From positions 1 to 41,508 of the IMG/VR virus record IMGVR_UViG_3300010371_000022: a DNA stretch of 41,508 nt. The stretch is one strand, 5' to 3'. The number at the start of each line of letters is the position of its first letter. Positions within the stretch are counted from its first letter, which is position 1. Below the pieces are notes generated by a model, which worked only from the letters and a program-made list of their open reading frames with translations, had not been told where the DNA came from and did no database searches. Below are positions 2,835 to 20,753 of the stretch, in pieces. Source of the stretch: a virus. The position numbers and the translations under genes were made by a program.

Positions 2835-3317
2835 TTAGAAATCGAGTGAAATCGCCGGCTGTTTCTTGGCTGCCTTCGCCGCTTCCTTCGCGCGATCCGC
2901 TGCCATACGAGCGAGAACAACAGCAACTTGAGGATGCTTGCGAAGCGCGGCCTTCTCCTTCCGTCCCATGCTCGAAAGCCGTTCCTCAACCACGTGCGTC
3001 GGTTTTGAAGTGACTTCGGCGAGAGCAAGAACAAGTTCCTTTGGCTCTTTCTCACTCTTCTCGCGCCCTGGCTTCCACTCGCCAGCCTTGAGCGCAGCAA
3101 TTGCCTTTTTCGTCGCTTCCTGCGGATCAGCGGCCTTGGCATATGCCTGTCCAACGATCCGAGAAACCCCAACACATTCCAAATTGACGCGCGTGGTGTC
3201 CGGGAGTTCCGACACATTCAATGCGATTTCGTCGCCATTGGCGAACTTGAATGTCACGGCGCCATCGCCGTTGATATGCGCTCGCGCCACACTCCGGCGC
3301 TTACCCTTATCGGCCAT
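2835..3317 (-). CDS. Uncharacterised protein divergent from the early operon
   Basis: The 160-residue protein has a beta-rich N-terminal third (A-V-T-F-K-F-A-N-G-D-E), a middle helix set and a strongly charged C-terminal tail rich in Ala and Lys. I recognise a similar layout in uncharacterised phage proteins of Alphaproteobacteria, but no function. The gene is a single-gene leftward unit with its own good promoter (3364-3392), AAAGGAAA ribosome site before ATG 3317, and a strong terminator. This is the position a repressor or other early regulator occupies in many temperate phages, yet no helix-turn-helix is evident. Confidence 0.85.
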   Translation of the reverse strand: MADKGKRRSVARAHINGDGAVTFKFANGDEIALNVSELPDTTRVNLECVGVSRIVGQAYAKAADPQEATKKAIAALKAGEWKPGREKSEKEPKELVLALAEVTSKPTHVVEERLSSMGRKEKAALRKHPQVAVVLARMAADRAKEAAKAAKKQPAISLDF

Positions 3318-3363
3318 TTTGAAATTTCCTTTCAGGTTTGAATCAGACAGACAAAACACTCTA

Positions 3364-3392
3364 TATATACGCGCTCGCGCGGCGAATTGCAA
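3364..3392 (-). promoter_or_regulatory. Leftward promoter of the 2835-3317 gene
   Basis: On the minus strand TTGCAA (3387-3392) and TATATA (3364-3369) are 17 bases apart. The spacer holds an inverted repeat, CGCGC-GA-GCGCG, adjoining the -10 box, which could be an operator. Confidence 0.7.
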
Positions 3393-3645
3393 TGGGAATT
3401 TTTGGGTTGTAGTTCCGGGCGGAAGTCCGTTTGACGGTTTGGCTTGGCACATAGACTGCCAAACTCGCTGAATGCGAGGGGGGCATCTCTAATTTAGGGG
3501 GTGTACTTCTCGTTGGTATACAAAATTTTTTATTCCTTAAACCAGACCAAAACCCCCTTACCGATACATCACCCCTTCGCTTACGGCGAGTTTAGCAGTT
3601 TATGTGACCCACAAGCAGGTCAAACCATTTTTCTCATTTTACCGC
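3393..3645. other. Divergent control region, non-coding
   Basis: No gene is supported here. The middle (about 3515-3545) is AT-rich with a run of T, flanked by G- and C-runs that are partly complementary (AGGGGGTG near 3500 and ACCCCCTT near 3555). It separates the leftward and rightward promoters and could hold operators or a replication origin. Neither is proven by the sequence. Confidence 0.5.
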
Positions 3646-3674
3646 TTGACGGGCTTCGCCCGCTGCCCTATATA
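3646..3674 (+). promoter_or_regulatory. Rightward early promoter
   Basis: TTGACG (3646-3651) and TATATA (3669-3674) are 17 bases apart. A 5-bp inverted repeat, CGGGC-TTC-GCCCG, lies at 3650-3662 between the boxes. It directly precedes the first gene of the long rightward operon and is the best promoter match in the window. Confidence 0.8.
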
Positions 3675-3722
3675 TAAAGTGTGTTCAGCCGCTCACGCGG
3701 CATTCGGAAGGAGCAAAGGGAT

Positions 3723-4031
3723 ATGGATATGAGCAAGGCCGCGATGCCAGCACGCTATGGCAGAGTCACAAAGGCAGATGAAGCGCACCCGCTATTCCCG
3801 CTCTATCGCCAATATCGTAGCAGCATGTCGCGGTTGATGGTTGATAGCAGCGATTTCCGCGATTGGCTCGGCCAATATGAACAAGAGCTAGTAAGCGTCG
3901 AATTCTCTAAACACCCGCGCATGTCCGAGTTCCTTCAATGGATGAAGGTCAATCAAGGCGGTGCGCGCAAATGTCCCGCAGGCGCATTCCCTCACAATTT
4001 CAAGTTCTGGCTAGAGGGAGGCCGCTGGTAA
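3723..4031 (+). CDS. Uncharacterised early protein, first gene of the rightward operon
   Basis: The 102-residue product is hydrophilic with several Tyr, Arg and Trp residues and no membrane segment. I do not recognise it. The start at 3723 is chosen because GGAAGGAG ends nine bases upstream; an in-frame upstream codon would place translation inside the promoter leader. As the first gene behind a strong promoter it is probably made early in infection. Confidence 0.75.
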   Translation: MDMSKAAMPARYGRVTKADEAHPLFPLYRQYRSSMSRLMVDSSDFRDWLGQYEQELVSVEFSKHPRMSEFLQWMKVNQGGARKCPAGAFPHNFKFWLEGGRW

Positions 4032-4049
4032 CGCCAACGCCACAACTCA

Positions 4050-4084
4050 CTTAAGCCCGCATGGATGATCCCAGCGGGCTTAAG
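4050..4084. repeat. Strong 11-bp inverted repeat between early genes
   Basis: Arms 4050-4060 and 4074-4084 are perfectly complementary (CTTAAGCCCGC) around a 13-base loop. The outer CTCA/TGAG can extend the stem after a small bulge. No T-run follows on the plus strand. It may be a transcript-stabilising or processing hairpin downstream of the first early gene. Confidence 0.8.
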
Positions 4085-4129
4085 GCAGTGAGAGACCATC
4101 AATTCTGGTACTCGGAAGGAGCAACCAAC

Positions 4130-4219
4130 ATGGACCCCAACAGCATCTCTTATCACTGGCCGCAACTCCTCCTTATCATCGCTGTTGGCGCGATTTTTGT
4201 GATTGCATCCCTGACTTGA
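4130..4219 (+). CDS. 29-residue membrane peptide
   Basis: GGAAGGAG lies eight bases before ATG 4130. The peptide has a short polar start (M-D-P-N-S) and one continuous hydrophobic segment (L-L-L-I-I-A-V-G-A-I-F-V-I-A) that would span the membrane. The ribosome site is nearly identical to that of the gene before it. Function unknown; early single-pass peptides can act on host membranes or as lysis regulators. Confidence 0.65.
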   Translation: MDPNSISYHWPQLLLIIAVGAIFVIASLT

Positions 4220-14781: not shown

Positions 14782-14965
14782 TTGGAACTGGCGCGATTTC
14801 GAAGCGCAAGATCGGGAAGCAACCAAGATGACGGATGATCTTGGAATTCCCGCGGAAGAAATGGCGCAAGTGGCAGGGTTTAAGCTGGTGGCTGTTTCAA
14901 CGCTCATCATGCTCCATCGTCGTCTCATTGCATTAGAAAAGCAAGTTGAGGAAATGAAGAAATGA
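14768..14965 (+). CDS. Uncharacterised 65-residue helical protein
   Basis: TTTGGAGG precedes ATG 14768, which overlaps the previous gene by 14 bases. The C-terminal helix ends in E-K-Q-V-E-E-M-K-K, suggesting a coiled coil. Its stop overlaps the next start as ATGA. Confidence 0.65.
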   Translation: MQKIDWNWRDFEAQDREATKMTDDLGIPAEEMAQVAGFKLVAVSTLIMLHRRLIALEKQVEEMKK

Positions 14966-15267
14966 AAGCTGGGGAGATTTGTGAAACCGCCGCGAAGCTG
15001 GTTTCCGGAGATAGAGAAAACACTCATGGGGATAAGGTTGAGAATCATCAGAACATTTCTCGTCTCTGGAATGCCTATCTAGGTTGGCGATTGAATACCG
15101 GATGCTATCTTAGTGCAAAAGATGTTGCCTTGATGATGGCGCTTGTCAAGATCGCCAGAACAAAGACTGGCGCATTTAATCCTGATGATTATGTCGATTT
15201 AGCCGGTTATGCCGGATGTGCTGGTGAGATAGCTCAGTTTGAACAGCAATTCGGATCGGGGAATTGA
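14962..15267 (+). CDS. DUF6378-like phage protein
   Basis: The 101-residue protein contains the family pattern: H-G-D-K-V-E-N-H-Q-N-I-S-R-L-W-N, then D-V-A-L-M-M-A-L-V-K-I-A-R-T-K and D-L-A-G-Y-A. Such proteins are frequent in phage replication modules and have no proven function; conserved His and Asp suggest metal binding. Coupled to the polymerase by a TGATG overlap. Confidence 0.85.
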   Translation: MKAGEICETAAKLVSGDRENTHGDKVENHQNISRLWNAYLGWRLNTGCYLSAKDVALMMALVKIARTKTGAFNPDDYVDLAGYAGCAGEIAQFEQQFGSGN

Positions 15268-16943
15268 TGATTTACTCCGGCCCTTTCGATGCGAAGATTG
15301 TGATTGTCGGCGAAGCGCCGGGAGCGGAGGAAGAACGCCACAAGCAACCCTTCATCGGGGAGAGTGGGAAGGAGCTTACAAAGATGCTGCACGAAGCCGG
15401 CATTGACCGGAATGAGTGCTTCATCACAAACGTAACTTCCCACCGCCCTCCCGGCAATAATATCGAACATTTCTTCTATTCGAAAAGGGAAGCAAAGCTT
15501 CTAGGAGAGGAGCCTTTCAATGGCCAATATCCGAAAGAGGAAATTAAGGAAGGGATTAGAGAACTCTTCCAAGCGCTCGAAACAATTAAGCCAAATGTCA
15601 TCCTCGCTCTTGGAAATACACCACTCTGGACTTTGTGTGGTGAGACAGGAATCACTAAATGGAGAGGCTCAATTCTTGTCTCTAGATGGGGGAAAATTGT
15701 CCCTACTTTTCATCCCGCTGATATTCTCCGACAATGGAACCATCGTTCGGTCGAAATACAGGATTTCCGTCGCGCAAAACGGGAAAGTGAGTTTCCAGAA
15801 ATCCGCAAGCCCAACTGGCAATTCCAAATACGCCCCAGCTTCAAAGAAGTCAAGGCATACGTAAATGACTTGGAACGCCGTGCAAAGCGCAATCCGATCC
15901 CGCTTGTATGTGACATCGAGACGCGAGATTGGCAGATTGCATGTTTGGGTTTGGCTTCGAACCAGACGGAAGCGATATGCGTTCCATTTATCACTAGAGA
16001 CATTCCAGACGGGTACTGGAATATTGAAGAGGAAGCGGAGATAGTTCAACTCCTTCGCCGACTTCTTACTAATCCCAACATCAAAGTCATCTTCCAAAAT
16101 GGTCTATTCGATTGCCAATATTTCGCAAAGCAGTGGGGCTATATTCCCAACTTCACCCACGATACGATGGTGATGCAACATGTCTGTTTCCCTGGAATGC
16201 TTGGCGGACGCATTGACAGCACAACAGGCAAAGTCGGTAAGAAAGGTAGTTCGCTCGCTCTTTCCTTTCTTTCATCCATGTACTGCGAATATCATAGATA
16301 TTGGAAAGATGATGGAAGATTATTCGATCCCTCAGTTGACGTTGAAGATACGTTGTGGAGATATAATTGTGAGGATTGCGTTAGAACATACGAATGTTTC
16401 GCCGCCTTGTGGAAAGCGCTTCAAGCTTATAAGCTCACCGAACAATATTTGTTCGAAATGAGTTTGTTTCAGCCTGTGTTTCAAATGATGATGCGGGGAG
16501 TGAGGATTGATGTTGGACGGCGAGCTAGTATTCAGCGAGAACTTCGAAGCCAAATGAAAGAGACAGGAACTTGGCTCGACTCCGCCGCCGGACATCCGTT
16601 CAATCCCCGCAGCGCTCCGCAGATGAAGGCATTTTTCTACAACGATCTTGGCGTTAAGCCCATTCTCCATCGAAAGACGAAACAACCAACGCTTGATGAT
16701 AAGGCACTCCAACAGATTAAAAAAAGCCAGCCTCTTCTAGAACCATTTATCGACAAGATTGAAGAATTTCGCTCCCTCGGCGTTTTCCTCTCAACCTTTG
16801 CGGAAGCGCCGCTTGATTTTGACGGCAGACTTCGTTGTGCCTTCAACATAGCAGGCGTTGAAACCTTCCGATTTTCCTCAAATGAAAGCGCATTTGGAAC
16901 TGGAACCAATTTACAGAACATACCGAAAGGAAGTGAAGATTGA
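15267..16943 (+). CDS. DNA polymerase A, N-terminal part (UDG-like, exonuclease, start of the polymerase domain)
   Basis: The 558-residue protein has three parts. Residues 1 to about 165 resemble a family 4 uracil-DNA glycosylase (G-E-A-P-G-A at 15-20 and His149-Pro150), as also seen fused to the polymerase of phage SPO1. Residues 210-380 form a 3'-5' exonuclease with Asp216 and Glu218, Asp282, and Tyr366 with Asp370. Residues 390-558 are the start of the family-A polymerase domain, ending in T-x-R-F-S-S and N-L-Q-N-I-P-K-G-S-E-D. The protein stops directly before the position of motif A. The rest of the enzyme is encoded at 18761-19513. ATG 15267 is preferred to TTG 15264. Confidence 0.9.
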   Translation: MIYSGPFDAKIVIVGEAPGAEEERHKQPFIGESGKELTKMLHEAGIDRNECFITNVTSHRPPGNNIEHFFYSKREAKLLGEEPFNGQYPKEEIKEGIRELFQALETIKPNVILALGNTPLWTLCGETGITKWRGSILVSRWGKIVPTFHPADILRQWNHRSVEIQDFRRAKRESEFPEIRKPNWQFQIRPSFKEVKAYVNDLERRAKRNPIPLVCDIETRDWQIACLGLASNQTEAICVPFITRDIPDGYWNIEEEAEIVQLLRRLLTNPNIKVIFQNGLFDCQYFAKQWGYIPNFTHDTMVMQHVCFPGMLGGRIDSTTGKVGKKGSSLALSFLSSMYCEYHRYWKDDGRLFDPSVDVEDTLWRYNCEDCVRTYECFAALWKALQAYKLTEQYLFEMSLFQPVFQMMMRGVRIDVGRRASIQRELRSQMKETGTWLDSAAGHPFNPRSAPQMKAFFYNDLGVKPILHRKTKQPTLDDKALQQIKKSQPLLEPFIDKIEEFRSLGVFLSTFAEAPLDFDGRLRCAFNIAGVETFRFSSNESAFGTGTNLQNIPKGSED

Positions 16944-17410
16944 GCACCTTGCGTCTATATCCAATTCACTTTGCCGATGCAAATGAATTTGTTCGCTTGC
17001 ATCACAGGCATCATCCTAAAGTAGTAGGATATAGATTTTGCGTTGGAGTAATGAATGCCCATAGACGGCTAGTTGGCGTGGCTATATGTAGTCGTCCGGT
17101 TGCCAGACATCTAGACGACGAAAAAATTATAGAAGTAACACGTTTATGCACCGACGGTACTAAAAATGCTTGCAGCAAACTTTACAGTGCGTGCGCCAGA
17201 ATCGCTGAAAATATGGGTTATGAACAAATAATCACGTATATTCTAGAAACTGAATCGGGACACTCTTTAAAAGTTTCTGGTTGGACTATCGACGGTGAAA
17301 CTCCGGGTAAACCGTGGGTTAGAACAAAATATGGAGAACAACACTATGGCACAAATTTACACGTGCTAGGAAAGAAAATTCGTTGGCGAAAGGATTTAAA
17401 GCCAAAATGA
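16940..17410 (+). CDS. XF1762-like GNAT-fold protein
   Basis: The 156-residue protein has H-R-H-H-P-K-V-V-G-Y and V-G-V-A-I-C-S-R-P-V-A-R, the pattern of the XF1762 family of GNAT-like phage proteins, whose substrate is unknown. It starts at TTG 16940, overlapping the polymerase stop, with AAAGGAAG upstream. Its base composition is visibly more AT-rich than its neighbours, suggesting separate acquisition. It is the first of five genes lying between the two polymerase parts. Confidence 0.8.
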   Translation: MSTLRLYPIHFADANEFVRLHHRHHPKVVGYRFCVGVMNAHRRLVGVAICSRPVARHLDDEKIIEVTRLCTDGTKNACSKLYSACARIAENMGYEQIITYILETESGHSLKVSGWTIDGETPGKPWVRTKYGEQHYGTNLHVLGKKIRWRKDLKPK

Positions 17411-17673
17411 GCAACAAAAGTCACCTCTCCCCGGCGGAAGTCGCGGCTATGGCACTCCACACAACACTAGTGGGGATTGCAGCTAATAACCAAGAACTCC
17501 CGCCAACCGTCGTTCTTCCAATGATTGCTCATATAATCGGGCATCATCTAAATTCCATAATCGAAAGCAGCCCGCCCGATTTGGAATTCCGCAGCGGCTT
17601 GCGGAAAGCAATACACGAAGCCTTCAACCGTGGCCTTCCTAACTACTCTCTCGTAGCTGAAAGGAAACAATAA
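17407..17673 (+). CDS. Uncharacterised 88-residue protein
   Basis: ATG 17407 overlaps the GNAT stop as ATGA and has AAAGGA upstream; a TTG at 17383 is the alternative. The protein is mostly helical, with M-I-A-H-I-I-G-H-H. Not recognised. It lies between the two polymerase parts. Confidence 0.65.
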   Translation: MSNKSHLSPAEVAAMALHTTLVGIAANNQELPPTVVLPMIAHIIGHHLNSIIESSPPDLEFRSGLRKAIHEAFNRGLPNYSLVAERKQ

Positions 17674-17966
17674 TGGATGCTAAGACAGTTGTGGAATGTT
17701 TCAACGACGATTGGCTTCAAGTGAGGGATGAAAGGGCGAATCTTATTGGTTTCGTTCATACAACCCTCTCCGAAGGACAGAGGATAGCAATGCGAATCGG
17801 AAAATTCCCTGTCCGCTTCCTCGCCCTGCCGTGCATCGTTTGTGAGGAAGGCATGAAGCCTCAAGAATTGCCCGGTTTCCATCCCGCCAATACCCCCGTT
17901 GTCGATCTAGGCCCCGATCCTAAGACAAAGGCGGATGCTGTCGCACAAGAACAGGAAGGTGAGTGA
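17673..17966 (+). CDS. Uncharacterised 97-residue protein
   Basis: AAAGGAAA precedes ATG 17673. The product has C-I-V-C-E-E-G and an acidic, Gln/Glu-rich tail. Not recognised. Its stop overlaps the exonuclease start as TGATG. Confidence 0.6.
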   Translation: MDAKTVVECFNDDWLQVRDERANLIGFVHTTLSEGQRIAMRIGKFPVRFLALPCIVCEEGMKPQELPGFHPANTPVVDLGPDPKTKADAVAQEQEGE

Positions 17967-18553
17967 TGTTGCTAGTATTTGACACAGAAACAACTGGGAA
18001 GTGGGATTTTCGCGGAACCATCGGTGAGCGGCATCAGCCGAGACTTGTTCAATTAGCTGCGATTCTCGTACAAAATACTGGGAACATATCTATAAATTAC
18101 ATAATCAAACCGAATGGTTTTACAATTCCAGATGAAGTTGCCAAAATTCATGGAATTACCAATGAACGGGCAATGGAGGAAGGTGTTCCGATAGAAGCTG
18201 TATTGAAACATTTTAATCTGTTAGCATATCAAGCCGATGAAGATAAAGACGGTTGGCTCATTGCCCACAACTTTAACTTCGACTTCAACATTTTGATGAA
18301 CGAACATTATCTCCGCCGGGAGGATAGTTCGTATCTCGGGCTATTGAAACCATATTGCACAATGCGCGCCGCGACGAAGCATTGTCGGCTTCCCAACCCG
18401 AACCCCCGTTTCTCTGCTTACAAATGGCCCACCTTGCAGGAAGCCTACCGCCATTTCTACGGAAAAGACTTCAAAGGCGCACATGATGCTCTTAATGATG
18501 TAAATGCCTGCCTCGCCGTCTATCATGCAATCCAAAAGGCGGAATCAGTATAA
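17966..18553 (+). CDS. DEDDh (DnaQ-like) 3'-5' exonuclease
   Basis: The 195-residue protein has all DnaQ-family catalytic motifs: Asp6-Thr-Glu8, N-F-N-F-Asp106, and His173 with Asp178 in H-D-A-L-N-D. It degrades DNA or RNA from 3' ends and could proofread. It is the fourth gene between the two polymerase parts although the polymerase N-terminal part already has its own complete proofreading domain. ATG 17966 follows AGGAAGG at good spacing; GTG 17963 is less likely. Confidence 0.92.
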   Translation: MLLVFDTETTGKWDFRGTIGERHQPRLVQLAAILVQNTGNISINYIIKPNGFTIPDEVAKIHGITNERAMEEGVPIEAVLKHFNLLAYQADEDKDGWLIAHNFNFDFNILMNEHYLRREDSSYLGLLKPYCTMRAATKHCRLPNPNPRFSAYKWPTLQEAYRHFYGKDFKGAHDALNDVNACLAVYHAIQKAESV

Positions 18554-18771
18554 TGCGTAAGCATACTTTTTTGAAGCATGAATCATGCACACATGTTAAT
18601 TGCCCCATTTGCGCTGGCGGTTTATCTTACTGCACGACTTGTAAAGGTGCAGAAGGATCACTTCCAACTCATTGTCCTGGCCGTCCCATGACAAACTCAG
18701 AGTGCTGCGCCGTATATGATGGCATAACAGATTACATAAACGGCAAGTGGATTTCTAGACATGGTTGCTAA
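18553..18771 (+). CDS. Cys-rich conserved phage protein
   Basis: The 72-residue protein has C-P-I-C, C-T-T-C-K-G-A-E-G-S-L-P-T-H-C-P-G and a final D-Y-I-N-G-K-W-I. This zinc-binding pattern is widespread in phage genomes and uncharacterised. It overlaps the second polymerase part by 11 bases. Confidence 0.8.
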   Translation: MRKHTFLKHESCTHVNCPICAGGLSYCTTCKGAEGSLPTHCPGRPMTNSECCAVYDGITDYINGKWISRHGC

Positions 18772-19513
18772 AACCATCAAACTCCCAAACATTCGGAAAA
18801 TGTTTCTGCCCGATCCCGGTTATGTGCTTGTTGATGCGGATTTAGAACGAGCCGACGCGCAAGTTGTGGCATGGGATGCGGGAGATGCGGATTTGAAAAA
18901 AATATTCCGCAGCGGAGCGGATATTCATACGGAGAACGCGAAGGCGATTTTTAAAACGGCTTCGCCAACACCAGTCCAGCGTCAAAAAGCGAAGGGCGGA
19001 GTTCACGCCGTTAACTATTTCGTTCAAGCAAGAACGCTCGCCGCGCAGTTGGAAATCACCATCCATGAAGCGCAGGAATTCATTGACCTATGGCTTCATG
19101 CGCACCCAGCGATCAAAAGATGGCATGAGAAAATCGAAACGCAATTGATGATGACTCGACAAGTTCAAAATGCTTGGGGCTTTCGGCGTTTCTATTTCGA
19201 TCGCATCGAACATCTATTGCCGGAAGCCCTTGCATGGATCGGGCAATCGACCGTAGGCATAACAATCAACAAAGCGATGATGAACATTTATCGAAATCTC
19301 CCCGAAGTCCAACTTCTCCTCCAAGTTCATGATTCCCTCGTCATGCAAGTTCCCGAAAAACTTTGCCCCGCCATCTTCTCCGAAATCCAATCCCAAATGC
19401 TAATTCCCATCCCCTATCCCGATCCGCTCATTATTCCAGTCTCGATTAAATATTCTGAGAAGTCATGGGGAGACCTGCGGGATTGGAAACCGAATGACAA
19501 GAAGGCAGCTTAA
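18761..19513 (+). CDS. DNA polymerase A, C-terminal part (motifs A, B and C)
   Basis: The 250-residue protein begins where the N-terminal part ends. After K-L-P-N-I-R-K-M-F comes motif A with Asp27 in V-D-A-D-L-E-R-A-D, motif B with Arg74, Lys78 and Tyr86, and motif C with His190-Asp191. All metal-binding and key nucleotide-binding residues are present, but Phe87 replaces the usual Gly after Tyr86. Removing the intervening DNA would restore one continuous frame (S-E-D followed by V-A-K-T-I-K-L-P-N). The ribosome site is weak, so expression may depend on coupling to the overlapping Cys-rich gene. Confidence 0.9.
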   Translation: MVAKTIKLPNIRKMFLPDPGYVLVDADLERADAQVVAWDAGDADLKKIFRSGADIHTENAKAIFKTASPTPVQRQKAKGGVHAVNYFVQARTLAAQLEITIHEAQEFIDLWLHAHPAIKRWHEKIETQLMMTRQVQNAWGFRRFYFDRIEHLLPEALAWIGQSTVGITINKAMMNIYRNLPEVQLLLQVHDSLVMQVPEKLCPAIFSEIQSQMLIPIPYPDPLIIPVSIKYSEKSWGDLRDWKPNDKKAA

Positions 19514-20753
19514 GGATTGGCTGGAAGCTTATCTTGAATATACCAATAATCTTGAATCACCTGAGATTTTCCATTTCTGGACGGGAGTATCAACCATAGC
19601 TGGTGCACTTCGGAAGAGGGTTTACATCCCTCAACGTCATTTCAAATGGTATCCTAATTTCTTCATCATCTTCGTTGGCCCACCCGGCATTGTTAAAAAA
19701 TCAACCACAATGGACGTTGGGAAGAAGCTATTAAAGGAACTTTCCTATATCCACTTCGGACCTGACATTGCAACTTGGCAGGAGCTTATAACGAGTCTAT
19801 CAGAAGCCCGCGATGATATTCCAACAGAAGACCCCAACAAGGCGGCGAATCCTCTCGAAGTAGAATTTGAACCAAGCTGCGCCATGACAATCTTTTCCTC
19901 CGAGCTAGGCAATTTCATTGACCCAGCCAACAAGGAACAAATCAACGTTCTAACCGACCTATGGGATGGGAGGAATGATGTTTTTGAGAAGAAAACGAAA
20001 ACGCAGGGGGATGATATTATTCCGAATCCATTTCTCAATTTATTAGGATGCACAACACCCGCTTGGATGCAGGATAATTTTAAGGGTCAATTCATTGGAT
20101 GGGGGTTTTCGAGTAGGACGATTTTGATTTATCGGGATCGGAAGAGGAAGAGGGTTGCGTACCCTGGCCTGGACGCGGAGACGGAGAGCGACCATGCCAT
20201 GCGCCGGGCGTTGGTGGCGGACCTAGACGCCATGGGCTACCTCGCCGGCCCTTACGCCCTTGCCCCTGATGCCATTGAGCTAGGCAAAGACTGGTACGAT
20301 GCTCATTGCGACCGCGAAGATGCCGTCAACGCCGACCCCTCCGGCGACCCCTACCTTCAACACTTCCTCGCCCGGAAGCAAGGCCATATTCACAAGCTCG
20401 CCATGATCCTCGCGGCGAGCCGAAGGAATGAACTAGTAATCACCCGCCTCGATTTGGAGGATGCGATAAAGCGCGTAGATGAAATAGAGACGGAGATGCA
20501 CAAACTCTTCAATCGCCACGTCCGAATACCGGAGAATGGCACGGCCAAGTACCTCGAAGATTTGTTAAAGCGCTATGGCCGGATGAAGGAACAGCACGTC
20601 TACGGCGCCTTGCTTCGGATGCACGTCACTTACAAAGACATCTCCGACGCTATTACACTCTGCTTGAAAGCGGAGTTGATAGAGCGTATATCAGAGGGAG
20701 GCGCGTTCTGGTTGAATCTTAGGGAGACGGACCATGGGGAGGATGCTGTTTAG
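19494..20753 (+). CDS. DUF3987-like P-loop helicase/primase
   Basis: The 419-residue protein has a variant Walker A at 62-71 (G-P-P-G-I-V-K-K-S-T), an acidic Walker B-like region around A-M-T-I-F-S-S-E-L-G and a C-terminal winged-helix-like end. This fits the DUF3987 group of phage replication ATPases that take the helicase or primase-helicase place. No other replicative helicase is seen in the window, which supports that role. The centre of the gene (about 20160-20430) is much richer in GC than its ends, suggesting a recombination event. It overlaps the polymerase by 20 bases. Confidence 0.75.
   Translation: MTRRQLKDWLEAYLEYTNNLESPEIFHFWTGVSTIAGALRKRVYIPQRHFKWYPNFFIIFVGPPGIVKKSTTMDVGKKLLKELSYIHFGPDIATWQELITSLSEARDDIPTEDPNKAANPLEVEFEPSCAMTIFSSELGNFIDPANKEQINVLTDLWDGRNDVFEKKTKTQGDDIIPNPFLNLLGCTTPAWMQDNFKGQFIGWGFSSRTILIYRDRKRKRVAYPGLDAETESDHAMRRALVADLDAMGYLAGPYALAPDAIELGKDWYDAHCDREDAVNADPSGDPYLQHFLARKQGHIHKLAMILAASRRNELVITRLDLEDAIKRVDEIETEMHKLFNRHVRIPENGTAKYLEDLLKRYGRMKEQHVYGALLRMHVTYKDISDAITLCLKAELIERISEGGAFWLNLRETDHGEDAV

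Follow-up and report, generated by a model that had tools for sequence, protein, structure and literature searches.

The window analyzed here, a 41,508-base IMG/VR virus record, encodes a UDG-exonuclease-family-A polymerase in two separate genes on the plus strand, at positions 15264/15267-16943 and 18761-19513, with the cut falling in the loop that connects NLQNIP to motif A. The N part (15264-16943; 559 amino acids from a TTG at 15264, with the first ATG at 15267) comprises a UDG-like domain, a 3'-5' exonuclease, the thumb, and motif 1, and it gave family matches to UDG (1.2e-28), exonuclease (5.6e-8), and DNA_pol_A (9.3e-12). Its C terminus reads TNLQNIPKGSED followed by the stop codon, i.e., the protein ends in NLQNIPKGSED, and at this split point (16923-16943, plus strand) an SD-like AAAGGAAG is found within the PKGSED loop codons. 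The C part (18761-19513; 250 amino acids; DNA_pol_A, 2e-33) comprises the palm and fingers with motifs A, B, and C; its N terminus is MVAKTIKLPNIRKMFLPDPGYVLVDADLERAD (start also given as MVAKTIKLPNIRKMF), the start codons of C parts being predictions. Five ORFs on the same strand, with overlapping starts and stops, pack the region from 16940 to 18771 between the two polymerase parts. A preliminary description of this DNA had proposed a family-A polymerase carried by two frames around five same-strand ORFs, and the ORF and profile matches bear this out. The split of the window polymerase into two genes is real and clean, as first observed.

All five cargo ORFs are on the plus strand. The first (16940-17410) encodes a 156-amino-acid XF1762/Mom-like (GNAT-type) protein (NF045478, 1.1e-53; phrog_1384, 1.7e-35), and its TTG start overlaps the TGA stop of the N part (TTGA) at the split point. 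No family match was found in family searches for the second (17383-17673; 96 amino acids) or the third (17673-17966; 97 amino acids); the third resembles positions 55-429 of another locus, L020, by eye only. The fourth (17963-18553) encodes a 196-amino-acid DnaQ/DEDD-type exonuclease (RNase_T, 7.8e-12; phrog_192, 5.9e-33), relatives of which are encoded within the L073 gap, next to the L020 C part, and approximately 4.4 to 5.5 kb upstream in L035 and L008. The fifth (18553-18771) encodes a Cys-rich protein of 72 amino acids, and its last 11 nt are shared with the start of the C part. None of the gap genes of the window matched a homing endonuclease family in the family profile searches.

The N part covers positions 6-134 of the PF00476 profile and the C part covers positions 139-358, so that almost nothing is missing from the split polymerase. 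When the parts are joined, the loop from NIP to LPN is 12 residues long (KGSED plus MVAKTIK), compared to 5 to 19 residues (median, 13) in intact relatives. The two neighboring ORFs together thus make up a complete polymerase homologue with no essential piece lost, and the earlier statement that nothing is lost on joining holds. Family-A motifs 1, A, B, and C are all present across the two parts. The N part contains the Exo I (D217 and E219), Exo II (N279 and D283), and Exo III (Y367 and D371) residues as well as the motif 1 residues T534, R536, and NLQNIP, and every one of the numbered residues is invariant in the N alignment; in the 43-row C alignment, D27 (motif A), K78, H82, and Y86 (motif B), and H190 and D191 (motif C) are invariant. 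The second frame had been described as carrying motifs A, B, and C; all three are indeed there, but motif B is the variant R-x3-K-x3-H-x3-Y (R74, K78, H82, and Y86), in which H replaces the usual F. This variant is common to the relatives, and the residue after the motif B Tyr is F in the window versus G in most relatives. Alignment of both parts with unsplit homologues, which had been suggested as a check, showed that the catalytic positions are kept and that the loop length is typical.

Relatives were recruited by using the C part and its alignment as queries, which yielded about a hundred loci, and each locus was scored for frame continuity across the loop. Neither the N-part protein as a single query nor the N alignment as a query found any loci, and recruitment of the relatives therefore rests on the C part. 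Among the loci scored, 38 distinct loci, including the window, have the cut in this loop, and the frame runs through it uninterrupted in 51; since these loci came from the best 80 hits of a single scan and from smaller searches, the proportion of split to intact loci should not be read as a frequency in nature. In two further loci (L020 and L061), the start of the C part is present and the contig ends before any N part. The occurrence of the same-loop cut in 38 distinct loci indicates that the split is not due to chance. The preliminary description had regarded the split as a rarity and had proposed a search for it in other phages; that search returned these 38 related loci, and a family-A split in OM43 phages was published in 2023, so that the rarity was not borne out. 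The cut position is constant, in that the N parts end in D/E-rich NLQNIPKG-type loops and most C parts begin a few residues before LPNIR. Moreover, 12 split loci and 0 intact loci have a C part extended by MVAxT, in which the first residue is M, V, or I. The split loci include the cultured Vibrio phage VS-ABTNL-3 (L005), in which one 184-amino-acid gene lies between the parts, and contigs of bacterial MAGs (L105 and L106); the gap of L106 is 1.9 kb, and the ORFs inside it look broken. The window derives from an IMG/VR record, as would be expected if the split were an assembly artifact of a metagenome contig, but the identical junction is present in tens of independent contigs, in the MAG contigs, and in the cultured phage, and G+C content is even across both junctions of the window gap. 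We therefore regard misassembly as almost inconceivable for the window, and as a general explanation it is refuted by the recurrence that includes VS-ABTNL-3.

The gap between the parts ranges across split loci from -8 nt (an overlap) to 1,918 nt. Ten split loci have a gap of less than 60 nt and no cargo, and in L013, L039, L040, L065, L072, L092, and L100 the zero-cargo split takes the form of a stop/start overlap (in L013 the junction reads GGAGGGTGGCTAATG), which excludes splicing in those loci. Indeed, the zero-cargo relatives have nothing to splice, and this argues against a self-splicing group I or group II intron that carries the ORFs and leaves a joined mRNA. Phage polA genes with group I introns are known, and the authors of the MEP401 study raised the possibility of an intron (PMC10580990). 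However, an Rfam search of the window region and ten additional loci detected no intron (the SPO1/Bastille-type core was not found), and the five overlapping ORFs leave little room in the gap, so that we consider an intron very unlikely. Joining of the two proteins through trans-splicing by a split intein, known from the fractured phage genes that carry split inteins and endonucleases (MIJ3; PMC6892783), is even less likely. A real intein does occur among the relatives, in the Exo III motif of L065 (YN-CLTGDTLIL...VVVHN-C), but in the window only 5 residues follow NLQNIP and 7 precede LPN, which is too short for intein halves, and intein families gave no match to either polymerase part. The packed ORFs, the lack of an Rfam or intein match in these searches, and the 5- and 7-residue tails uphold the earlier claim that the gap has no room for an intron core or an intein.

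Other split loci carry endonuclease genes exactly at the cut, a clue to its possible origin that was missing from the preliminary description. The sole gap gene of L008 encodes an HNH_3 protein (7.8e-10), another HNH_3 protein is encoded in the L037 gap (1.5e-7), and the 146-amino-acid protein encoded in the L076 gap matches the phrog_374 HNH endonuclease (3e-36). A stretch of the L069 gap is 49% identical to the L008 HNH protein, and a free-standing HNH gene is probably present there as well. Loci L076 and L092 share 86 to 89% DNA identity over approximately 10 kb, but at the cut L076 carries a single clean HNH ORF that L092 lacks, placed exactly at the ATGA stop/start overlap; because both loci are split, this pair shows endonuclease gain or loss at an open site and not the opening itself. 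Relatives of the gap HNH proteins are encoded directly after intact polymerase genes in L059, L050, and L094, in agreement with the previous observation that HNH homing genes often adjoin phage DNA polymerase genes (PMC10448857).

For the L076/L092 pair, dN/dS was 0.065 for the N part and 0.097 for the C part, indicating that both parts are under strong purifying selection. Other locus pairs were saturated at synonymous sites, and for want of a relative close to the window, these estimates of selection come from relatives alone. These values bear on the possibility that the polymerase gene is dead, having been broken by an insertion, and that a host or other polymerase is used instead. Although insertions usually inactivate genes, every catalytic position is kept, both frames are open, and the split state persists across very divergent phages; together with the selection on both parts in L076/L092, this makes a dead gene quite unlikely.

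In 33 of the 38 split loci, a frame of at least 50 amino acids starts no more than 15 nt from the stop of the N part, mostly at ATGA or TAATG, and such junctions are the usual sign of translational coupling, which the sequence arrangement thus suggests for these genes. An SD-like tetramer is found in the PKGxE loop codons of 95% of split loci and 84% of intact loci, compared to 30 to 34% in random windows of the same genes (30% for split and 34% for intact loci), and an SD-like pentamer is found in the loop of 51% of split and 30% of intact loci, against a background of 10 to 11%. The loop may be preadapted for reinitiation, but this enrichment is suggestive only because the K, G, and E codons contribute to it by composition.

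Rows from annotated phage records were left out of the input for the structure models. The AF2 model of the window C part alone had a pLDDT of 95.8 and a pTM of 0.89, and in Foldseek it matched KlenTaq, Bst Pol I, and Pol theta over their palm and fingers with a TM score of approximately 0.8; by this prediction, the C part folds on its own into palm plus fingers. In the AF2 model of the intact polymerase of L064 (pLDDT, 93.8), the cut-bearing residues 531-561 are modeled as coil, and the blocks of lowest confidence within the palm are among them. Alignment of a profile of intact relatives to Klenow (1.2e-54) located the cut upstream of motif A, after NLQNIPVRNEEG and ahead of RRIRQAF. The cut falls in an exposed loop of variable length (from motif 1 to motif A), so that no secondary-structure element is broken.

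On a tree of 89 rows and 783 columns, from which the loop columns had been dropped, the split and intact states required 10 changes, of which at least 3 are forced by well supported branches; the N-only and C-only trees gave 10 and 11 changes, respectively. Forcing all split rows together cost 227 log units (p-AU = 7e-12), and a single origin of the split is ruled out by this AU test. Since the splits are scattered on the tree and monophyly is rejected, the split state has arisen, disappeared, or been transferred on several occasions at this loop; the number of gains among the 10 changes is not fixed. Every member of the smallest well supported groups around the window is split; the first of these groups adds L073 and L075, and the next adds L008, L035, L014, and L072.

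The gap cargo varies from locus to locus. ThyX is encoded within the gap of L035 and outside the gap in L053, L045, and L044; a MazG-like protein is encoded within the gaps of L014 and L017 and outside in L072, L002, and L019; a methyltransferase is encoded within the gaps of L044 and L054 and outside in L043; and dUTPase is encoded within the gap of L097 and outside in L039 and L044. A DUF6378 protein is encoded within the L017 gap; the window encodes one as well, but ahead of the N part (14962-15267). As gap genes recur elsewhere around polA in relatives, the gap appears to be stocked from the phages' own replication and nucleotide neighborhood. We tentatively suggest, as a possible rather than a probable reading, that the loop ahead of motif A acts as a standing dock which, once opened, stays open for long and lets genes be exchanged through it, while the enzyme consists of two translationally coupled subunits. 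The genes exchanged through such a dock would include those for an endonuclease, thymidylate synthase, MazG, dUTPase, a methyltransferase, and a second exonuclease, and the cargo exonuclease of the window might then act together with the polymerase.

It is highly probable that the polymerase is a genuine gene in pieces, most likely a putative two-subunit family-A enzyme whose assembly, activity, and history we infer. The N part (UDG, exonuclease, thumb, and motif 1) and the C part (palm and fingers) would be translated separately from one operon and would come together noncovalently as a single family-A polymerase, the kind of assembly that the preliminary description had envisaged. The gene may have been opened by a free-standing HNH homing endonuclease or by a simple stop and restart beside the SD-like PKG codons; an endonuclease, if it was there, would later have been lost from the opened gap, and genes of the phage's own replication and nucleotide neighborhood would then have occupied it. 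The choice between these two origins is close to even, with the window counting against an endonuclease origin in that its own gap is without an endonuclease. According to the endonuclease-free alternative, a frameshift or stop in a tolerant, SD-like loop created two coupled genes (TAATG or ATGA) and insertions came afterwards. In its favor are the zero-cargo splits in several clades, which are compatible with splitting first and HNH genes later, the SD-like motif in intact loops (84% versus 34% background), and the L076/L092 pair, split both with and without an HNH gene; a similar ambiguity has been described for gp43 (PMC2988022). HNH genes of more than one family nevertheless recur at one site, and the zero-cargo state could equally remain after endonuclease loss, and we place the endonuclease-free origin somewhat short of an even chance. 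The protein outcome is the same for both origins, and only the history differs.

Among the closest known systems are the OM43 (Methylophilales) phages MEP401 and MEP402, for which a split family-A DNA polymerase was published in 2023 (PMC10580990). Their polymerase, like that of the window, is a family-A enzyme encoded by two ORFs that part between NLQN and motif A, and the split is recurrent within its group, as it is among the window-type loci; unlike the window polymerase, it has no UDG domain, and its cargo is one small ORF. An intron was considered possible by the authors, and no endonuclease link is reported in the passages covered. Their record places the cut after IKTLFLSRYGE, just before motif A and approximately 15 residues beyond that of the window, and this MEP401-type cut position was not found in the window. 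In the T4-like Aeromonas phages 25 and 44RR, gp43 is likewise a replicative polymerase made as two proteins, but of family B rather than family A; a homing endonuclease is present at the split in one phage, and the phage 25 halves copurify and polymerize (PMC2988022). In Aeh1, nrdA, a ribonucleotide reductase gene, is split by the free-standing HNH endonuclease gene mobE into two functional parts (PMC2988022), whereas the window gap holds five other genes and no endonuclease. The MIJ3 PolB polymerase is also split around an HNH gene (PMC6892783), but with intein halves, of which there are none at the window cut. The UDG-exo-PolA proteins of MW202489 and Microcystis phage Mel-JY34, approximately 41 to 43% identical to the window polymerase over both parts, have the same domain order in one uninterrupted gene. 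What appears to be new is that a single loop is cut so widely among UDG-exo-PolA phages, with graded gap states, an endonuclease link, and large, variable cargo; no earlier report of these features was found in the literature searched, which covered few subscription journals and makes this absence weak evidence. The graded states that occur naturally at this single site (uninterrupted, split but free of cargo, split around an HNH gene, and split around ordinary cargo) make directly testable how selfish endonucleases break and reshape essential genes, and the natural split points could serve in studying the assembly of Pol I-type enzymes. If the proposed reading is true, a widespread two-subunit family-A replicative polymerase joins the short list of split polymerases.

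The window polymerase is bordered directly upstream of its N-terminal part by a DUF6378 gene (14962-15267), a relative of which was found within the gap of a related polymerase locus, L017. At the other end, a gene for a DUF3987/primase-type protein (19494-20753) overlaps the end of the C-terminal part by 20 nt, and a DUF3987 protein is likewise encoded downstream of polA in locus L003.

Several of the related loci were interrupted at other positions. The polymerase of L053 (1850-5216) was in three pieces, in which the UDG-like domain (1850-2500) is followed by small ORFs, the exonuclease and thumb (3143-4153) are followed by a MazG-like gene, and the C-terminal part comes last. The exonuclease domain was additionally cut before Exo III in L059 (near 4277) and in L089 and L091, which represent one sequence type; at these cuts, stop and start codons meet as ATGA or TGATATG, with no cargo genes between them. 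In L024, L025, Caulobacter phage Kuura (L004), and MW202554 (L006), the cut separates the exonuclease from the polymerase part or lies close to that boundary, with small genes in the first three and a 150-nt gap in MW202554. The polymerase of L065 (3536-5986), which is also cut at the motif-A loop, carries an intein of approximately 254 aa in its Exo III motif (junctions YN-CLTGDTLIL...VVVHN-C).

Two loci had irregular reading frames. In L094 (2219-3880), the polymerase was continuous except for a single in-frame stop in the N-terminal region, which may reflect sequencing error, recoding, or decay. The gap in L106 (4061-5980) spans 1.9 kb, and its ORFs appear broken.

A family-A split has already been published for the Methylophilales (OM43) phage MEP401 (L108, gp13-gp15; PMC10580990). 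Its cut lies approximately 15 residues downstream of the window's cut, at a different position within the motif-1/motif-A region.
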